A DNA stretch of 20,243 nucleotides from a virus, in the IMG/VR virus record IMGVR_UViG_3300037070_002162, positions 1 to 20,243 of that record, one strand, 5' to 3'. Shown in pieces: positions 3,624-20,071 of this stretch; position 1 is the first letter of the stretch; the number at the start of each line of letters is the position of its first letter. The translations under genes were made by a program, and so were the position numbers. The notes under the pieces were generated by a model, which was not told the DNA's origin, ran no database searches, and saw only the letters and a program-made list of their open reading frames with translations.

Positions 3624-6600
3624 TAGCGCATCCTACGAGCGCGAATTGACCCAAACAGCTGCACAGTGCCAGTGCCGTGAGTGAAGCTGGCGATGGCCTT
3701 CAGATAGTAGGTCGTTGTCGCAGTGATAGAGACGCGGAAAGTGGGGAGTACAAGAGAGATGTCGTTCGATGCAGCAAACGTAGCGGCTAGCTGGTTCGTG
3801 TTGCGGTTCAGGTCTCTACCAGTCGTGCTGGTGCCGATGGCCGTTCCAATCCAAGCGCTGGCGCTAGAGAGCGTATCTGGTGCGCCTCCACCAAGCTCAA
3901 AGCGCACAACACCACCGATGTCCCAGTCGCCGGCAGTTAGTGTGATGCCAGTCTCACCAGTCGTTGTGTTCGTGCCGAACGTTGCGTTGACGTCAACCGA
4001 GCCTGTAAAAACACCACCCGAAGACGTTTCAACAGAGAGCGCAGAAGAGCGGACGTTTTCCAGGTACTCACCCACGTACCCAGTAGCAGCACTGTCGTTG
4101 GTGTTGGTGCCCAACAGCTGTCCAGCGTTCTTAACGAGACCGGAGTGAGTCTGCGTGACTTCACCAAAGCCTACAGCAGCACCAGCAGCCTTCTTCTTCA
4201 CACGCCAGTAGCTAGTGCTGGGCCAGTCCACAGCAGGGGCATCGTCGTTGGCGATGTTCTGGTATCGCGCAAAGTAGACTCGGACGGATGTTGCGCCACT
4301 GCTGTCGATGTATGCACCAGAACCACCCGAAAGTGATCCAGCAGCAGACATCATGTTTTGTACTGCTGCGTTACTGATTACGGCGTTTGCAGCAGGGTAC
4401 CAGACGCTTTGATTCTCAGAGTATTCCAGGCTGATCTCATCCGTGGCCCGGATAGTCGTTTGGAACGTGACTGTCTTGATGCGAGTGGTAGTTAGTGCTC
4501 CGCCCATGATCGCGCCGCCAGGGCCGTACACGGTAGTGCTGTCGTTGGCGTCCCAGGTGCCAGCGACGGCGGCATACTCAACGTCGTTCTGGGCTACGTT
4601 GATCGTGCCGCTACCAGTCCACTCGGCAATGGGGATCTTGGCTGTAAAACCAATAGTGTCGCCACTAGCGATCGTTACAGGAGCTGCATCAGTCAACAGG
4701 CCACCAGCAACCTCACCAGGCTCACCACCATACTGAACAGTTAACTGCGTAGTGGAATTGTTGTAAACCACCAACGCTGACCGATTCTGTTGGGCTGAGG
4801 CGTCATCAAAGAAGCCAACACCAAGGGGTGTATTGCCAGACGACGGCAGTGCCGCGGTGTCTATAGTGAACCCAGACGGCAGCTCAAAGCGAAACGAACC
4901 CGCGCCGGTGGTCCCGCCAGAGGCAGTCCAAAAGGCGTACAGGTTCATGTACTGACCTTCGCGGTAGTAGTAGGTCTGCGAAAGCGTGCCAGCTACGTTC
5001 GTTGTAGTCCCATTCTTGACTGTCAGCGTGATAGCTGTAGGAGGGCCAACTATAGCACCCTGTGGCTGTGTGCCCGGTCCAACCACCACGTCACTGATGA
5101 CAATGCCGCCGTCGGTGGTCATGTCCCCAGTGGCGCGGATCACTAGCGACAGGGTCGCCGTGGTGCTCGCATCGAAGCTGGTAGTGAACACCCCGTCAGC
5201 AGCAGGGATGGCAGTAGTAACAGGCGTGTGAAGGAACGTGGTCCTGTCGGCCTGCGTGGTGATGCCCACCGCCAGCTGCCCAGCAGTGTAGGTCCCCGTG
5301 GTCTTCTGCGCCCAGGAAATCTTGAGCTTCTTGGACAGGTCTACATCATCAAGTGTGAAGTCGTAATAGACGTAGTCCGCCACCGACTGCGTGTTGGCAT
5401 CGGCGGTGATCTTGATACCACTGCCGGTAGTAAACTCGCGAGGAAGATCAGCCGCCGTCGTGGTCGTCGCCACATCGAGATCGCCAACATTGGCCCAACC
5501 ACTGGCCGTACTGGTCCCCTGGACGTAGTTCTTCTCACCAGCACCAGCACCAACAGCACTTTCTGTGCCGTCGCTGTTCTTCTGATACAGTTTCTTGTCG
5601 GTCTTGGCGTAAACACTGACACGCCCGGAGGCAGGAGTGCCTGGGGCCGTCTGCTCCACAAACTCAAGGCCACCGTCTTCTCCGACCGCAACGCGAGTCG
5701 TGAGGGCATTCGCTGAACTACCGCTGCCGCCGGCCGCTGCGGTCTGCAGCTTCAGCTCGCCGCCCACGCCGGTACCCGTACCCGCGCCCGCCGCGAGGAT
5801 CAAATCAGCGCCAGCCACGTTGCTGCCGCTGCCGGTGGTGCCGTTGATCGTCACTGACGTCGGCGTGGCGTGAGTTAGGCCCTTGCCAAAGTAGACCGAA
5901 TTGATTGGGTATCCAGACGATCCAGCTACGAAGGTGTTGCTGGCAGTGGTTGTGGCGTCACGCCCCAGCAGGATCGAGCCCGCAGTCGCCGCGCCAAAAG
6001 TAGTGTCTGCTCCTACCGCTACGTTACCGGCTCCGGTATCCAGTGTCAGTGCCGCCTGGTATCCAATGGCCACGTTCTTGGTGCCAGTGGTCACGTTGAC
6101 CATAGCCGACCGTCCAAGGGCCGTGTTGGAGGCCGCCGTGGAGTTATATCCGGCGGCTCGACCCACATGCACGGAGTCGTTCGACGTCGCGCTGTAGCCA
6201 GCTTCCAGGCCAACAAACACGTTGCCGGATTGATTGGTAAGGTTATGTCCTGCGTCGTAACCCAAGAGGGTATTGCCAGACCCAGACAACAAGCTGCTAC
6301 CGGCTTGCCAGCCCACCAACGTATTGGACCCGCCATCCGTAAGCGCGGCGCCCGCTCCCTTGCCGATCACCGTAAGTCGTGTGGCCGTCGTGTGGGCGGT
6401 GTTGGTAGTGTTGCCGATCCAGGTATTATCGGTACCTTTATTGTCCACGAACGTCGTGGCATCGAGCACGAACACCCCACCAGCCGTCACGTTGCCGGTA
6501 AAGGATGCCGAAGGACCGCTGACCGTTTTGTTGGTCAGGGTTTCGCTGCCGGCCAGCGTCGCCAGGGTGCCGGTAGTCGGCAACGTCAGCGCCGTAGCTC

Positions 6601-7543: not shown

Positions 7544-7561
7544 CGGCGCCCGAAGGCGCCG
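7544..7561 (-). other. UUCG-loop hairpin abutting the fibre Shine-Dalgarno
   Basis: On the minus strand a perfect 7-bp stem CGGCGCC/GGCGCCG closes the very stable tetraloop TTCG. Its last G is also the first G of the fibre gene's GGAGG. There is no T-run after it, so it does not look like a terminator; a 5' stabiliser, processing end or translation-tuning element is more likely. Confidence 0.6.
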
Positions 7562-8498: not shown

Positions 8499-8529
8499 GG
8501 AAGGAAGGCCCGGGCAAGGGCCTCCTTCC
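8499..8529 (-). terminator. Rho-independent terminator after the capsid gene
   Basis: On the minus strand, just after the capsid stop, GGAAGGAGGCCC pairs with GGGCCTTCCTTCC (12 bp, one bulged base) around a 6-base loop, followed by the T-rich TTCATTTTTC. This is the best terminator in the window. It probably lets only part of late transcription continue from the abundant capsid gene into the downstream tail genes. Confidence 0.8.
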
Positions 8530-11080: not shown

Positions 11081-13030
11081 CTAGGCCGCCACGGGTGGCG
11101 GCAGCGGAGCTGCCGGCATCGCTTCCAGGCCCAGTTCTGGGGGTCCGCCCGCGGCAGCGGGACCGGGAGGAGTCCCCGCTGCCGGCGCGGCGGCCTCGAC
11201 CATGAGCTGTTCCCGTTGTTCGATGTGACGCTCCAGCAGGGCCTGGACCTTGCGATCCAACACCTTGAATACCATAGACATTCTGAACTCGTACGCGGCC
11301 GACAGCATGCCTTGGTGTTCTTCCAGCTTGCGGGGCTCGATGTAGACCAACGTCCCGTCCTCTTCGAACTTGGCGATGATCTCGTCAAAGATCTCCAGCT
11401 GTCGACGGCGGGCCATGTCGGCCATGTCGAACAACCCAGCGACATCATTGAGCTTAAGCATCGACAGGATGGTCTTGACCGTGTAGCCGGCTTCCTTCAG
11501 CAGCGGCATCATCTGCATGATCTCTTCCCGACGGGAGGCCGGGTCGAGCGAGAACGATGCCCCATACTGGACATCTAGGTCGAAGCCGCCTTCGATGTCC
11601 GAGCTGGAGTAGTAGGCCACCGCCATGGCGCCTTCCTGGCCGGTGACCAGGATCTTGCGGCCGTCCGACCAGAACATCTGGACCAGGCGTAGGTGGGTCT
11701 TGTAGGCCCACTCGACCAGATCCTGATACTTGTTGAACAACCGGCGCCGCACCATGTTACCTGCGTTGATTGCGGTCTGGATCGAGAACCCAGACATCTC
11801 CCGGTTAACCTGGCCGAACATGGACTCGTTGACCCCAGCCAGCTGCTCCATGCCCTGGACCAGCTGCTCGCGGAAACGATAAATGTCAGGCATCATGGTG
11901 GGCGGGTCGACGAAGTCCGGCTTCTGGGCGGCGGTGCCTTTGATGTTCACGATCTGCCAGCCCGAGTCCGTGATGGCCCCGTCCTGGTTCTCGGCCGCGT
12001 CGTACACCACCATCCGCACGTTGCCGTGGGCCTGGATATTGTCGAGCACCGTCGAGTCCAGGCGGTTCAGCACATCCTGCAGGCGGACCAGATAGTCCAC
12101 GAAGGTCTTGCCATAGACCTGGCCAGGCACGTCCACGTCGGTCATGGGGAAGATCGGCAGCATGCCGTCCGGGTTCGGGTTGGCTTCGATGTCCGACAGC
12201 AAGGTGCCGTCGTCCAGCAGAAACACCCGACGACCGGCCATGCCGTTCCAGGGCAGCGCCTTCTCGATGTACTCGAACACCGCTACCCGGTCCTTGGGTT
12301 CGCGGCCGTGGGCGTCGCGATCCCAGAACCGGGATCGGGATTTCTGTCCCGTGTACTTCTGAATCAGTTCCTTCTGGTCTGGGAACCGGTACTCGGCCTC
12401 TTCGCGCGACATGATGTGACGCAGGAACACGTAGCGGACTTCGTCCCACACGGTGGCCGCGGGGTCCAAGAACACGTCCCAGATCAGCAGCGGCTTCCAG
12501 CAGATGTCGCCGGTCATGGTGAGTTCGCGCGTCTTCTCGTCGATCGCCAGGATCTGGCCGCGGCCTGGGTCGTTGAAGACCTTAAGGAAGCCGGTGCCGT
12601 AGGTCAGGGTCTGCAGGGACACCAGGTCCGTGCGCTCCTGGGTGCGGTACTGGCGGCGGGCGTGAGTTACCAGGTGGTCGGCCACCTCGGCCGCTTGGCG
12701 GTCCTGATAGTCGGAGCTGGTCGGTCGCGGCACCACTGACGGCGGGTTGGCCGACATCAGGGCATGAATGTACCGCAGGTATTTGAACATATAGTTGATA
12801 GTAATCGCAGAATCACCAGAATCCATGTCCCCAGCAAACAGCTCAGCCAGAGAGTCGTAAGACACAGAGATCTCGCTAGCGGTAGACCCGTTCGCAGAAA
12901 AGAGCATAGACTCATTGGTTGCCCATCCACCCTCAAACCGGGAGCGATAATCCTTGGCCTCTTTCAGGCGTTCAGGTACCTGCTTGGCGGCGTCGTCCTG
13001 CGTCCACTGTTCGTATCGAACCGGAACCAT
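11081..13030 (-). CDS. Portal protein
   Basis: A 649-residue portal, from the ATG at 13030 with GGAGG 5 bases upstream (MVPVRYEQWTQDDAAKQ). A GTG 18 codons earlier keeps the frame but has no Shine-Dalgarno sequence and would lie inside the preceding small gene. The protein has the mixed build of portals: an N-terminal helical part (ERLKEAKDYRSRFEGGW), a strand-rich wing with ICWKPLLIWDVFLDP, a central helical stem and crown region with long helices (FRMSMVFKVLDRKVQALLER), and a Pro/Ala-rich C-terminal tail ending APLPPPVAA. It forms the 12-subunit ring for DNA entry. Position between terminase and scaffold agrees. Its start overlaps the small gene's stop as TGATG. Confidence 0.88.
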   Translation of the reverse strand: MVPVRYEQWTQDDAAKQVPERLKEAKDYRSRFEGGWATNESMLFSANGSTASEISVSYDSLAELFAGDMDSGDSAITINYMFKYLRYIHALMSANPPSVVPRPTSSDYQDRQAAEVADHLVTHARRQYRTQERTDLVSLQTLTYGTGFLKVFNDPGRGQILAIDEKTRELTMTGDICWKPLLIWDVFLDPAATVWDEVRYVFLRHIMSREEAEYRFPDQKELIQKYTGQKSRSRFWDRDAHGREPKDRVAVFEYIEKALPWNGMAGRRVFLLDDGTLLSDIEANPNPDGMLPIFPMTDVDVPGQVYGKTFVDYLVRLQDVLNRLDSTVLDNIQAHGNVRMVVYDAAENQDGAITDSGWQIVNIKGTAAQKPDFVDPPTMMPDIYRFREQLVQGMEQLAGVNESMFGQVNREMSGFSIQTAINAGNMVRRRLFNKYQDLVEWAYKTHLRLVQMFWSDGRKILVTGQEGAMAVAYYSSSDIEGGFDLDVQYGASFSLDPASRREEIMQMMPLLKEAGYTVKTILSMLKLNDVAGLFDMADMARRRQLEIFDEIIAKFEEDGTLVYIEPRKLEEHQGMLSAAYEFRMSMVFKVLDRKVQALLERHIEQREQLMVEAAAPAAGTPPGPAAAGGPPELGLEAMPAAPLPPPVAA

Positions 13031-14621: not shown

Positions 14622-14853
14622 CCTGGATGTTCTCGTCCTTGCGACCGGTCAGGCGTTTGATCTTCTTGCTGACGCGGTGCGAAAAGTCCTGGATCGGCGG
14701 GCCCCGATCTGCCGGGCCTTCGCCTTGCCGTGGCCCCGGCTGATTCGGGGCCCCGGTGAGAATCTGGACCACTACGGCGGGGGTGACGGAGGACCCAGGA
14801 CACTCGTGTCGCTGGCCACAAACCGAACACACTTCCTCGGGACTATCTTGCAT
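14608..14853 (-). CDS. Small CxxC (zinc-finger-like) phage protein
   Basis: An 81-residue protein from the second of two adjacent ATGs. That ATG has AGGAG 5 bases upstream and forms TGATG with the preceding stop; the first ATG (14856) would sit only 2 bases from the same site. The N-terminal region has CSVCGQRHECPGS, three Cys and a His within 12 residues, suggesting a half zinc knuckle. The middle is Pro/Gly-rich and the end basic then acidic (SKKIKRLTGRKDENIQDEPE). It overlaps the terminase start. It may assist packaging, but I do not recognise it and the metal-binding call is inference. Confidence 0.65.
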   Translation of the reverse strand: MQDSPEEVCSVCGQRHECPGSSVTPAVVVQILTGAPNQPGPRQGEGPADRGPPIQDFSHRVSKKIKRLTGRKDENIQDEPE

Positions 14854-15284
14854 CATAGCTCCTGCAGTACCCAGATCTCAGACACGGTCACTGCGTCGCC
14901 CGGAACTTCGAGGATAGGATCCGGGATGGCGTCGGGATCCGCAGGGATGGTGTCCGTGGTACCCACAACAACCACCCGACCCTTGCACAGCAGGGGTAGA
15001 TAGGTTTGGTCGGCCGCTCGGTCAACAAGGAATTTGAAGTAGTAGTTTCCGTCGGCCGTGATGGAGGCACTCTTGGTGTCGATCCAGTCGCCGTCCTGTC
15101 CTTCGGCAGTCTGAAGGGTAGCAGTGATGCTTCCCTCTACATTGACATCCACAGCCACAAGCTTGACAACGAGATAACAGGAGCCAACCGCGGTGATTGC
15201 AAACTCCTCACTAGCCACCACCGTTTGGTCGCCGTCGAGGGTCACTGGATTCTTGACTACGTTCTTGGGTACGTAACCGTTCAT
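14853..15284 (-). CDS. Virion-like paralog A (tandem duplicate)
   Basis: A 143-residue strand-rich protein starting MNGYVPKNVV and ending VLQEL. It is clearly similar to the next gene upstream: the same six-residue start, the same EEFAITAVGS/KPFAITAGGS block, the same GSITATLQTA/GTITAKLQTA block, the same DQTYLPLL core followed by GRV, and the same last five residues. Relative to its partner it has about 15-20 extra residues near 110-128 (a Pro/Asp-rich loop, TIPADPDAIPDPILEVPGD). The start overlaps the partner's stop as TGATG, with AGGA upstream. The fold looks like a beta sandwich. Likely a small virion protein (head decoration or fibre-tip type); this is unproven. Confidence 0.7.
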   Translation of the reverse strand: MNGYVPKNVVKNPVTLDGDQTVVASEEFAITAVGSCYLVVKLVAVDVNVEGSITATLQTAEGQDGDWIDTKSASITADGNYYFKFLVDRAADQTYLPLLCKGRVVVVGTTDTIPADPDAIPDPILEVPGDAVTVSEIWVLQEL

Positions 15285-15664
15285 CAGAGTTCCTGAAGGA
15301 CTTCGACAGCGTCGATAGTGACGGTGTCGCCCGCGTTGGTGTTGACAATCAGAACTCGGCCCACATCCAGGAGGGGAAGATAGGTCTGGTCGCCAGCAGT
15401 CTCGACCATCAACTTGATGTAAAAGTTGCCGTCCTCGGTGATTGCGACCGTCTTGCTATCAACCCAATCATCTCCAATGGCAGTCTGAAGTTTGGCTGTG
15501 ATAGTGCCTACAACCGTGACATCGCTCGCCACGATCTTGATGACCATGTGTCGCGAACCACCGGCGGTGATCGCAAATGGCTTAGTGACAACCGTGCCGG
15601 CCTGGACACCCGCCACAGTCTGTGTCCCTGGCTTGATTACACTAGAGGGTACATACCCGTTCAT
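15284..15664 (-). CDS. Virion-like paralog B (tandem duplicate)
   Basis: A 126-residue strand-rich protein, MNGYVPSSVIKPGTQ to VLQEL, the shorter partner of the adjacent gene and without its acidic Pro-rich insertion. Shared blocks run across the whole length, so the pair comes from duplication of a complete gene rather than one domain. It follows a 70-base gap after the peptidase gene, the longest gap between genes in this part of the operon. Function is as for its partner: an unassigned small virion or assembly protein near the packaging genes. Confidence 0.7.
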   Translation of the reverse strand: MNGYVPSSVIKPGTQTVAGVQAGTVVTKPFAITAGGSRHMVIKIVASDVTVVGTITAKLQTAIGDDWVDSKTVAITEDGNFYIKLMVETAGDQTYLPLLDVGRVLIVNTNAGDTVTIDAVEVLQEL

Positions 15665-18022: not shown

Positions 18023-18108
18023 TGGTGGATCGGGTAGGATTCGAACCTACAAAGCCTTTCGGCGCCTGGTTTACAGCCAGGTGGGTTAAACCATTCCCCC
18101 ACCGATCC
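18023..18108 (-). tRNA. tRNA-Tyr (GUA), class II with long variable arm
   Basis: Acceptor stem GGATCGG/CCGATCC is perfect, followed by discriminator A and an encoded CCA. The anticodon arm is CCTGG, loop CTGTAAA, CCAGG, with anticodon GTA (18074-18072). The variable arm folds as GCC-GAAA-GGC, as expected of bacterial Tyr tRNAs. The T arm is GTAGG, TTCGAAT, CCTAC. It is the first element of the leftward cluster, 42 bases before the next gene. Length is 86 bases including CCA. Confidence 0.95.
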
Positions 18109-18790: not shown

Positions 18791-18840
18791 CGCCCGAAGG
18801 GGCGCCCGGACTATACGTCCGGCCGGCACATTCGTGCCGG
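18791..18840. other. Three back-to-back perfect hairpins
   Basis: CGCCC-GAAG-GGGCG (18791-18804), CCGGAC-TATAC-GTCCGG (18806-18822) and CCGGCAC-ATTC-GTGCCGG (18823-18840) follow one another with only one base between the first two. All stems are perfect, so both strands would fold. A possible closing stem is ATCCT (about 18777) with AGGAT (about 18855). There is no T-run, so it is not a simple terminator. Confidence 0.65.
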
Positions 18841-18967
18841 GATGATTCCGATTAAGGATGAAACAGTATGTTGTATTGTCCAACATTTTCATGGTTCGAT
18901 TCACGCGGTAAACAACACACACTGACCGGAGAATGGTCGCTGTGGGTCCTTGGATTGGGGGAGCTTG

Positions 18968-19336
18968 ATGTATAACTCTGAGGGCTTGATTGGCCTGGTG
19001 ATCCAGGCTGTTGAGCTGTCTCCAGACAAAGAGACTCTGACTTTGTTTGGAGCCGGCGGCGTGCCGCTCGGACGGCTGGTCACTACCGGAGATTGCTGCT
19101 CACACTCCTGGATCGAGCACGTCGAGGGAGAGGAGCACCTGCTGGGGCAGCCCATTCGGCGGGTCGAGGAAGTCTATCTAAGTAGGCAAGATCACCCGGA
19201 GTTTGACTGCCTGCAGTCCTACTCGTTCAAGATCTGGACGGATCGTGGGATCTGCGACATCGAATTCCGCAACTCATCTAACGGATACTATGGCGGGGAG
19301 ATTGAATTCCATGCGGCTGAAAGCACTGACGGCTGA
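18968..19336 (+). CDS. Small conserved phage protein with a DCCS motif (DUF7448-like)
   Basis: A 122-residue protein from the ATG at 18968, with GGGGGAG 4 bases upstream; a TTG six codons earlier is less likely. The start MYNSEGLIGLVIQAVELSPD leads to a core containing TTGDCCSHSWIEHVEG, a motif I associate with small phage proteins of the DUF7448 type, then SYSFKIWTDRGICDIEFRNS and YYGGEIEF near the end. It looks like a compact beta-rich domain. It is the first gene of the rightward set. The function of the family is not known to me, so only the family resemblance is offered. Confidence 0.7.
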   Translation: MYNSEGLIGLVIQAVELSPDKETLTLFGAGGVPLGRLVTTGDCCSHSWIEHVEGEEHLLGQPIRRVEEVYLSRQDHPEFDCLQSYSFKIWTDRGICDIEFRNSSNGYYGGEIEFHAAESTDG

Positions 19337-19505
19337 CCTGGCCGACGGAGAAGTACAGGCCTTGTACTACGGCCTGGCCGAGTCGATCGGCGACGGGACG
19401 GGCGACGGCGAACGCCTGTTAGAGGATCTACATACCGAACTAACGCCGTTGGGCTGGACGTTCCAGTCCGGACGAGCCTATCCACCCGGACCGGAGGGAG
19501 AATGA
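19311..19505 (+). CDS. Hypothetical small phage protein
   Basis: A 64-residue protein, MRLKALTADLADGEVQALYY to PPGPEGE, beginning inside the last 26 bases of the preceding gene in another frame. GGGGAG stands about 11 bases upstream, rather far, so coupling to the previous gene probably helps. It looks like a helical, acidic protein with a Trp/Phe-rich C-terminal third. Not recognised. Its stop overlaps the next start as ATGA, a sign of a genuine operon member. Confidence 0.6.
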   Translation: MRLKALTADLADGEVQALYYGLAESIGDGTGDGERLLEDLHTELTPLGWTFQSGRAYPPGPEGE

Positions 19506-19654
19506 AACATTTCCTGGACTTCACGATCTTCGTGATCGGCGCCGGCTTGTACGTCGCCGCCGTGCTGGGGCAGGCGTGGGCCTTGCCGACGCTAGCCTGG
19601 CTGGCGTTCTACCTAGGATTCATGCACATAATCAATCCTTATGTCCACAACTAA
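19502..19654 (+). CDS. Tiny two-span membrane protein (50 residues)
   Basis: MKHFLDFTIFVIGAGLYVAA and the rest form two hydrophobic segments (about 4-22 and 28-44) with a Pro between them and a short polar end (NPYVHN). The ATG overlaps the preceding stop as ATGA, and GGAGGGAG just upstream gives a strong ribosome site. Probably an inner-membrane protein of the early phage set; exclusion or host-membrane roles are common for such genes, but none is shown. It ends 15 bases before the three-way-junction element. Confidence 0.7.
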   Translation: MKHFLDFTIFVIGAGLYVAAVLGQAWALPTLAWLAFYLGFMHIINPYVHN

Positions 19655-19669
19655 GCCTGTTGGGGGAGC

Positions 19670-19723
19670 GCGAGGGGGGCCGGGCAATGCCCGGCGCGGG
19701 GACTTTGTCCCCGTCCCTCTCGC
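19670..19723 (+). other. Compact three-way-junction structure (candidate structured RNA)
   Basis: An outer stem pairs 19670-19678 with 19715-19723 (9 bp). Inside are two perfect 7-bp hairpins, GCCGGGC-AAT-GCCCGGC (19679-19695) and CGGGGAC-TTT-GTCCCCG (19697-19713). Only one base at 19696 and one at 19714 are left unpaired at the junction. The single non-Watson-Crick pair is G19675 with T19718, which is allowed as G-U only in a plus-strand RNA. The element lies between two rightward genes, so plus-strand transcription is expected. Confidence 0.6.
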
Positions 19724-19747
19724 CATGGCTCGACTGAAAGGAGAGGC

Positions 19748-20071
19748 ATGCTGAAGCTTGAAGTCGGTAAGACATATGTGGATGGGGCAGGCACACAATG
19801 GAGGTGCTTGGCCACCGACCGAAATGGCGGACCATATACCCGATGTGTCATGCTCGCGAAGTCCGGAGCAATACAATACAGCAACATTCATGGTGTTTAT
19901 TGTGGTAATCCCACCTCCGCGGACATGGTTCGCGAGTGGGTCGAGCCCCGCGAGTGGGACATGTGGGTCCATCCAACCGGACATCCCTTCATCAACTCTG
20001 AACACCACAACGAGCAGAACAACCGCGCGATGGGCTGGACCCTAATCAAGGTGCGGGAGATCTTCGAATGA
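19748..20071 (+). CDS. Hypothetical small phage protein
   Basis: A 107-residue protein with GGAG 5 bases before the ATG. It starts MLKLEVGKTYVDGAGTQWRC, a strand-rich N-terminal domain of the kind common in small phage proteins of unknown role, then has Cys at about 20, 33 and 52, and a Trp/His-rich C-terminal part (WVEPREWDMWVHPTGHPFIN). It follows the structured element closely. Its stop overlaps the next start as ATGA. Not recognised; no enzymatic motif is seen. Confidence 0.7.
   Translation: MLKLEVGKTYVDGAGTQWRCLATDRNGGPYTRCVMLAKSGAIQYSNIHGVYCGNPTSADMVREWVEPREWDMWVHPTGHPFINSEHHNEQNNRAMGWTLIKVREIFE

Follow-up and report, generated by a model that had tools for sequence, protein, structure and literature searches.

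What a short and strongly folded sequence might be doing between two rightward genes of a virus is the question raised by positions 19670-19723 of the window, that is, of the whole stretch of DNA that was analysed, a complete IMG/VR virus record of 20,243 bases. The record probably represents only part of a tailed phage genome. Its leftward genes include those for terminase, portal, a protein in the scaffold position, capsid, adaptor and a tail-fibre-like protein. The features around the plus-strand operon are these:

18023-18108: tRNA-Tyr gene
18968-19336, plus strand: DUF7448 gene (PF24240, phrog_2650), the first recognisable gene of the operon
19314-19505, plus strand: open reading frame (ORF) of 63 amino acids (aa)
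19502-19654, plus strand: upstream cistron, an ORF of 50 aa rich in hydrophobic residues (from sequence and translation)
19748-20071, plus strand: downstream cistron, an ORF of 107 aa preceded by AAAGGAGAGG
20068 onwards, plus strand: further ORF, overlapping the 107-aa ORF

Each of the first three ORFs (DUF7448, 63 aa, 50 aa) overlaps its neighbour, the ATG of the 50-aa ORF overlapping the stop of the preceding ORF, and the 107-aa ORF likewise overlaps the one starting at 20068. The sole gap in the operon is 19655-19747, where the element is located; because the neighbouring ORFs overlap, the element can be regarded as the filler of this only gap. The earlier note on this DNA had placed it between two rightward genes, and the 50-aa and 107-aa ORFs do flank it. 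A stop codon precedes it by 15 nt and the next start lies 24 nt beyond its end, distances that approximately correspond to the room between the footprints of a terminating and an initiating ribosome. There is no PHROG or Pfam match for the 50-aa protein, and no known relatives of the 107-aa protein were found.

The same 10-mer, TTGGGGGAGC, is present at 18955-18964, before the start of DUF7448, and at 19660-19669, directly before the element. Successive GC-rich hairpins occur at 18800-18840, close before a 27-codon ORF; this part of the window, ahead of the operon, is otherwise poor in genes. Two adjacent similar genes (14853-15284 and 15284-15664), whose proteins begin with MNGYVPKNV and MNGYVPSSV, adjoin the terminase gene and are apparently a tandem duplication. 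More GC-rich hairpins devoid of a T-run are found in gaps between late genes, one after the capsid gene (8504-8525) and one before the tail-fibre-like gene (7544-7561, minus strand).

The element can be divided into the following parts:

19670-19723, plus strand: whole three-way-junction element (RNA fold, exceeding shuffles)
19670-19678, plus strand: 5' arm of the closing stem (GCGAGGGGG), 9 bp with 19715-19723, one of them G-U
19679-19695, plus strand: hairpin 1, 7-bp stem, loop AAT (RNA fold)
19696-19714, plus strand: hairpin 2, 8-bp stem with a terminal G-U pair, loop TTT (RNA fold)
19715-19723, plus strand: 3' arm of the closing stem (CCCTCTCGC; RNA fold)

The predicted RNA fold of these 54 bases is a fully paired three-way junction of 24 pairs, ((((((((((((((((...)))))))((((((((...))))))))))))))))), and the coordinates first proposed for it, 19670-19723, are exact. 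Its minimum free energy on the plus strand is -44.8 kcal/mol (ensemble frequency 0.85), with a z-score of -7.07 and equal stability in none of 200 shuffles. The earlier description, a 9-bp closing stem around two hairpins with 3-base loops, is borne out by the fold, but some details of it had to be amended. Hairpin 1 does have the 7 bp that were assigned to both hairpins, whereas hairpin 2 has 8, since the two bases thought to be unpaired at the junction, G19696 and U19714, form a second G-U pair at the end of its stem. The junction itself is fully paired, and the only unpaired bases are those of the two triloops. The wobble pairs are consequently two instead of one, although the statement that wobbling works on the plus strand only holds for both: they are G-U on this strand, but on the minus strand they become A-C mismatches and drop out of the best fold. 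With DNA parameters either single strand can fold (-25.2 for the plus strand versus -23.0 for the minus strand). The RNA fold persists when the flanking context is included, and the downstream ribosome-binding site AAAGGAGAGG then falls outside the element.

The structure exceeds chance within this window. The element scores 21 on a three-way-junction descriptor; when the entire 20-kb plus strand was subjected to 827 dinucleotide shuffles, the highest score was 20. None of 7500 shuffles that kept the local composition reached 21 (3000 of the 93-bp gap, 3000 of 300 bp and 1500 of 1.2 kb), and of all 60-nt stretches in the window, on both strands, the element is the most stable. A control set of natural phage and bacterial DNA (1.74 Mb, searched on both strands), partly chosen for carrying one of the two hairpin sequences, holds eight junctions that score 21 or more; these are lopsided, many of them combining a single long hairpin with short arms, and no junction with three arms all of at least 7 bp is present among these controls. 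The screening of very many windows would turn up a few such structures.

Relatives of the element were sought at several levels. Rfam, at gathering and loose thresholds, yielded only a tRNA in the whole window; the loose matches over the element correspond to GC-rich microRNA models, far below the cut-off, and were discarded as chance. No second copy exists, at the stringency used, in the 20,243-bp record, which is possibly a fragment, and there is no copy in phage records. Beyond the window's own copies, the exact 17-mer of hairpin 1 is present in 41 viral stretches, in many cases as a plain terminator stem, and the 17-mer core of hairpin 2 in 5 viral and 63 bacterial or archaeal stretches. 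Among the former there is no three-way junction but the window's own, none of the latter holds a matching junction, and the two hairpins never appear together outside the window in the collections searched. A pattern joining both inner arms gave nine matches in viral contigs, all due to chance and with other folds. A covariance model, which effectively represents one sequence and is therefore weakly sensitive, recovered only the window's own copy among the phage's relatives, gave no match in 299 genomes, and produced weak one-hairpin matches in loci picked for carrying a hairpin.

The relatives of the virus by terminase and portal show 36-61% identity. The contigs of the closer ones stop before the element region, such a junction is absent from the two larger records (61.8 and 51.7 kb), and relatives with other genes at this region lack the element. 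The terminase search in bacterial genomes confirmed no relative, and queries with DUF7448 and the 107-aa protein had no match in viral contigs. DUF7448 is present in many phages. There is no high-scoring junction at the DUF7448 loci of AVIO78A and Scorpia, where an overlapping gene comes straight after DUF7448, or of HU1, where spacing is ordinary, indicating that the element lies outside any conserved DUF7448 module. It is a singleton in the collections searched. Two other structures deserve mention: a dispersed repeat, CGGGGACTTTGTCCCCGAACCCCTA..., present in many copies and accompanied by more small hairpins in the Ruminococcus metagenome-assembled genome RUG10751, and a near-palindromic element at 6377-6440 of a viral contig, in which a closing stem of 17 bp encloses two small hairpins, that is unmatched in phage records.

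The reading that we favour, with a probability of about 0.4, is that of an intercistronic element for messenger RNA stability and insulation, acting in a predicted plus-strand RNA. From the predicted structure, the rarity and the position of the element we infer that, once transcribed, it would form a compact, fully paired three-way junction within the message. Because of the 15 and 24 nt that separate it from the stop and the start, it may stay folded while both flanking cistrons are translated. The fold could keep 3'-5' exonucleases away from the upstream message at its 3' end, guard the downstream message on its 5' side and uncouple the translation of the 50-aa and 107-aa cistrons, and RNA polymerase would perhaps be paused or partly terminated at it. 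As in messenger RNA stabilising elements, a stable coding-strand structure is found between cistrons. For processed messages, hairpins at the 3' and 5' ends have been reported to act as barriers to exonucleases and RNase E (PMC5371410). The element shares with REP-like and other protective hairpins of bacterial operons its GC-richness, its intercistronic place on the coding strand, the lack of a U-tract and the proximity to stop and start signals. However, REP families are repeated in each genome, whereas this element is a three-way junction with one copy in a record of 20,243 bp that is possibly a fragment. The earlier suggestion of a phage element in plus-strand RNA that is not a canonical terminator fits, as far as it goes, the strand of the operon, the two G-U pairs, the intercistronic site and the missing T-run. 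On the other proposals of that note, a free-standing ncRNA, a specific protein-binding site or a DNA cruciform, the results speak neither in favour nor decisively against.

It is possible, if doubtful, that the element is instead a GC-rich attenuator without a U-tract, in which a partial stop or pause would set the ratio of upstream to downstream product. It is placed behind a stop codon, the capsid gene too is followed by a U-poor GC hairpin (8504-8525, minus strand), and hairpin 1 recurs with identical sequence in many viral contigs, often as a terminator stem before T-runs. Unlike intrinsic terminators, however, the element has two hairpins within a closing stem and no U-tract: the GC-rich hairpin of a Rho-independent terminator is present, but the T-run right after the stem is replaced by CATGGCTCGACTG, as the earlier note had also recognised, and the terminator scan omits the element. 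Moreover, there is no promoter-like site between the element and the downstream gene to serve that gene after a stop. Lacking this T-run, the element does not qualify as a canonical terminator.

The earlier note had also considered an RNA-processing site, a proposal that fared less well than the intercistronic stability element. In phage T7, RNase III sites stand between early genes, and the element resembles them, on general knowledge of T7, in its intercistronic place in a phage operon and in its strong duplex character; the operon itself is a probable early one. Cleavage by RNase III or a similar endonuclease is nevertheless unlikely, because the helices are too short: the arms have 9, 7 and 8 bp, and even coaxial stacking would give no more than 9+8 or 9+7 bp, below the 22 nt or so used as the minimum RNase III target size (PMC5371410). 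The short arms of a three-way junction also set it apart from T7-type sites.

An element working at the DNA level, such as a cruciform, a palindromic protein-binding site or a small palindromic insertion, would agree with the ability of both strands to fold, and hairpin 2 lies within dispersed repeats of at least one bacterial metagenome-assembled genome. We consider it improbable, since it is only on the coding strand that the two imperfect pairs can form as G-U, no second copy was found in the record and none in phage records, viral contigs contain no copy with the two hairpins, and neither a target duplication nor a flanking repeat was identified. There is a still smaller chance that the element is the first seen of a group of compact, fully paired three-way-junction phage RNAs that would act between cistrons as roadblocks to exoribonucleases or polymerase, with a specific phage or host protein recognising both C-G-closed triloops.

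A leader-peptide device is very improbable. The 16-codon ORF at 19687-19737 (MPGAGTLSPSLSPWLD) would start in loop 1 and stop shortly before the next ribosome-binding site, and the ATG, the in-frame stop (19735-19737) and an upstream G-rich sequence are all present; but the closing stem sequesters the putative Shine-Dalgarno sequence, ORFs this short often arise by chance, and coding constraint lacks any homologue to show it. Finally, N4-type promoter hairpins were considered and not retained, phi29 packaging RNA was dropped for want of an Rfam match and for its wrong anatomy, and a hammerhead ribozyme (Rfam clan CL00010), also a three-way junction within phage intergenic DNA, is excluded by the absence of an Rfam match and by its need for a conserved unpaired catalytic core, whereas the junction of the element has no unpaired base.

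Microbacterium phage Shocker (NC_073470.1), distantly related by terminase, has a type II hammerhead match above the Rfam cut-off at 43755-43838 (minus strand), in the gap between two small genes. The same phage carries an intergenic three-way junction at 11366-11428 (plus strand; arms of 9, 5 and 12 bp), between gp21 and gp22 and just after the portal gene; among other phages it was found in none beyond two records of Shocker itself.

The element at 19670-19723 is real, neat, above chance and well placed, and it probably acts in messenger RNA as a roadblock or spacer, a role that we infer for what is so far a singleton. As a singleton devoid of covariation it tests no open question now; it would become testable once a near relative from this phage lineage is found. 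If functional, the element would be a small natural RNA part that needs only 54 bases to keep two phage cistrons apart and withstand decay.
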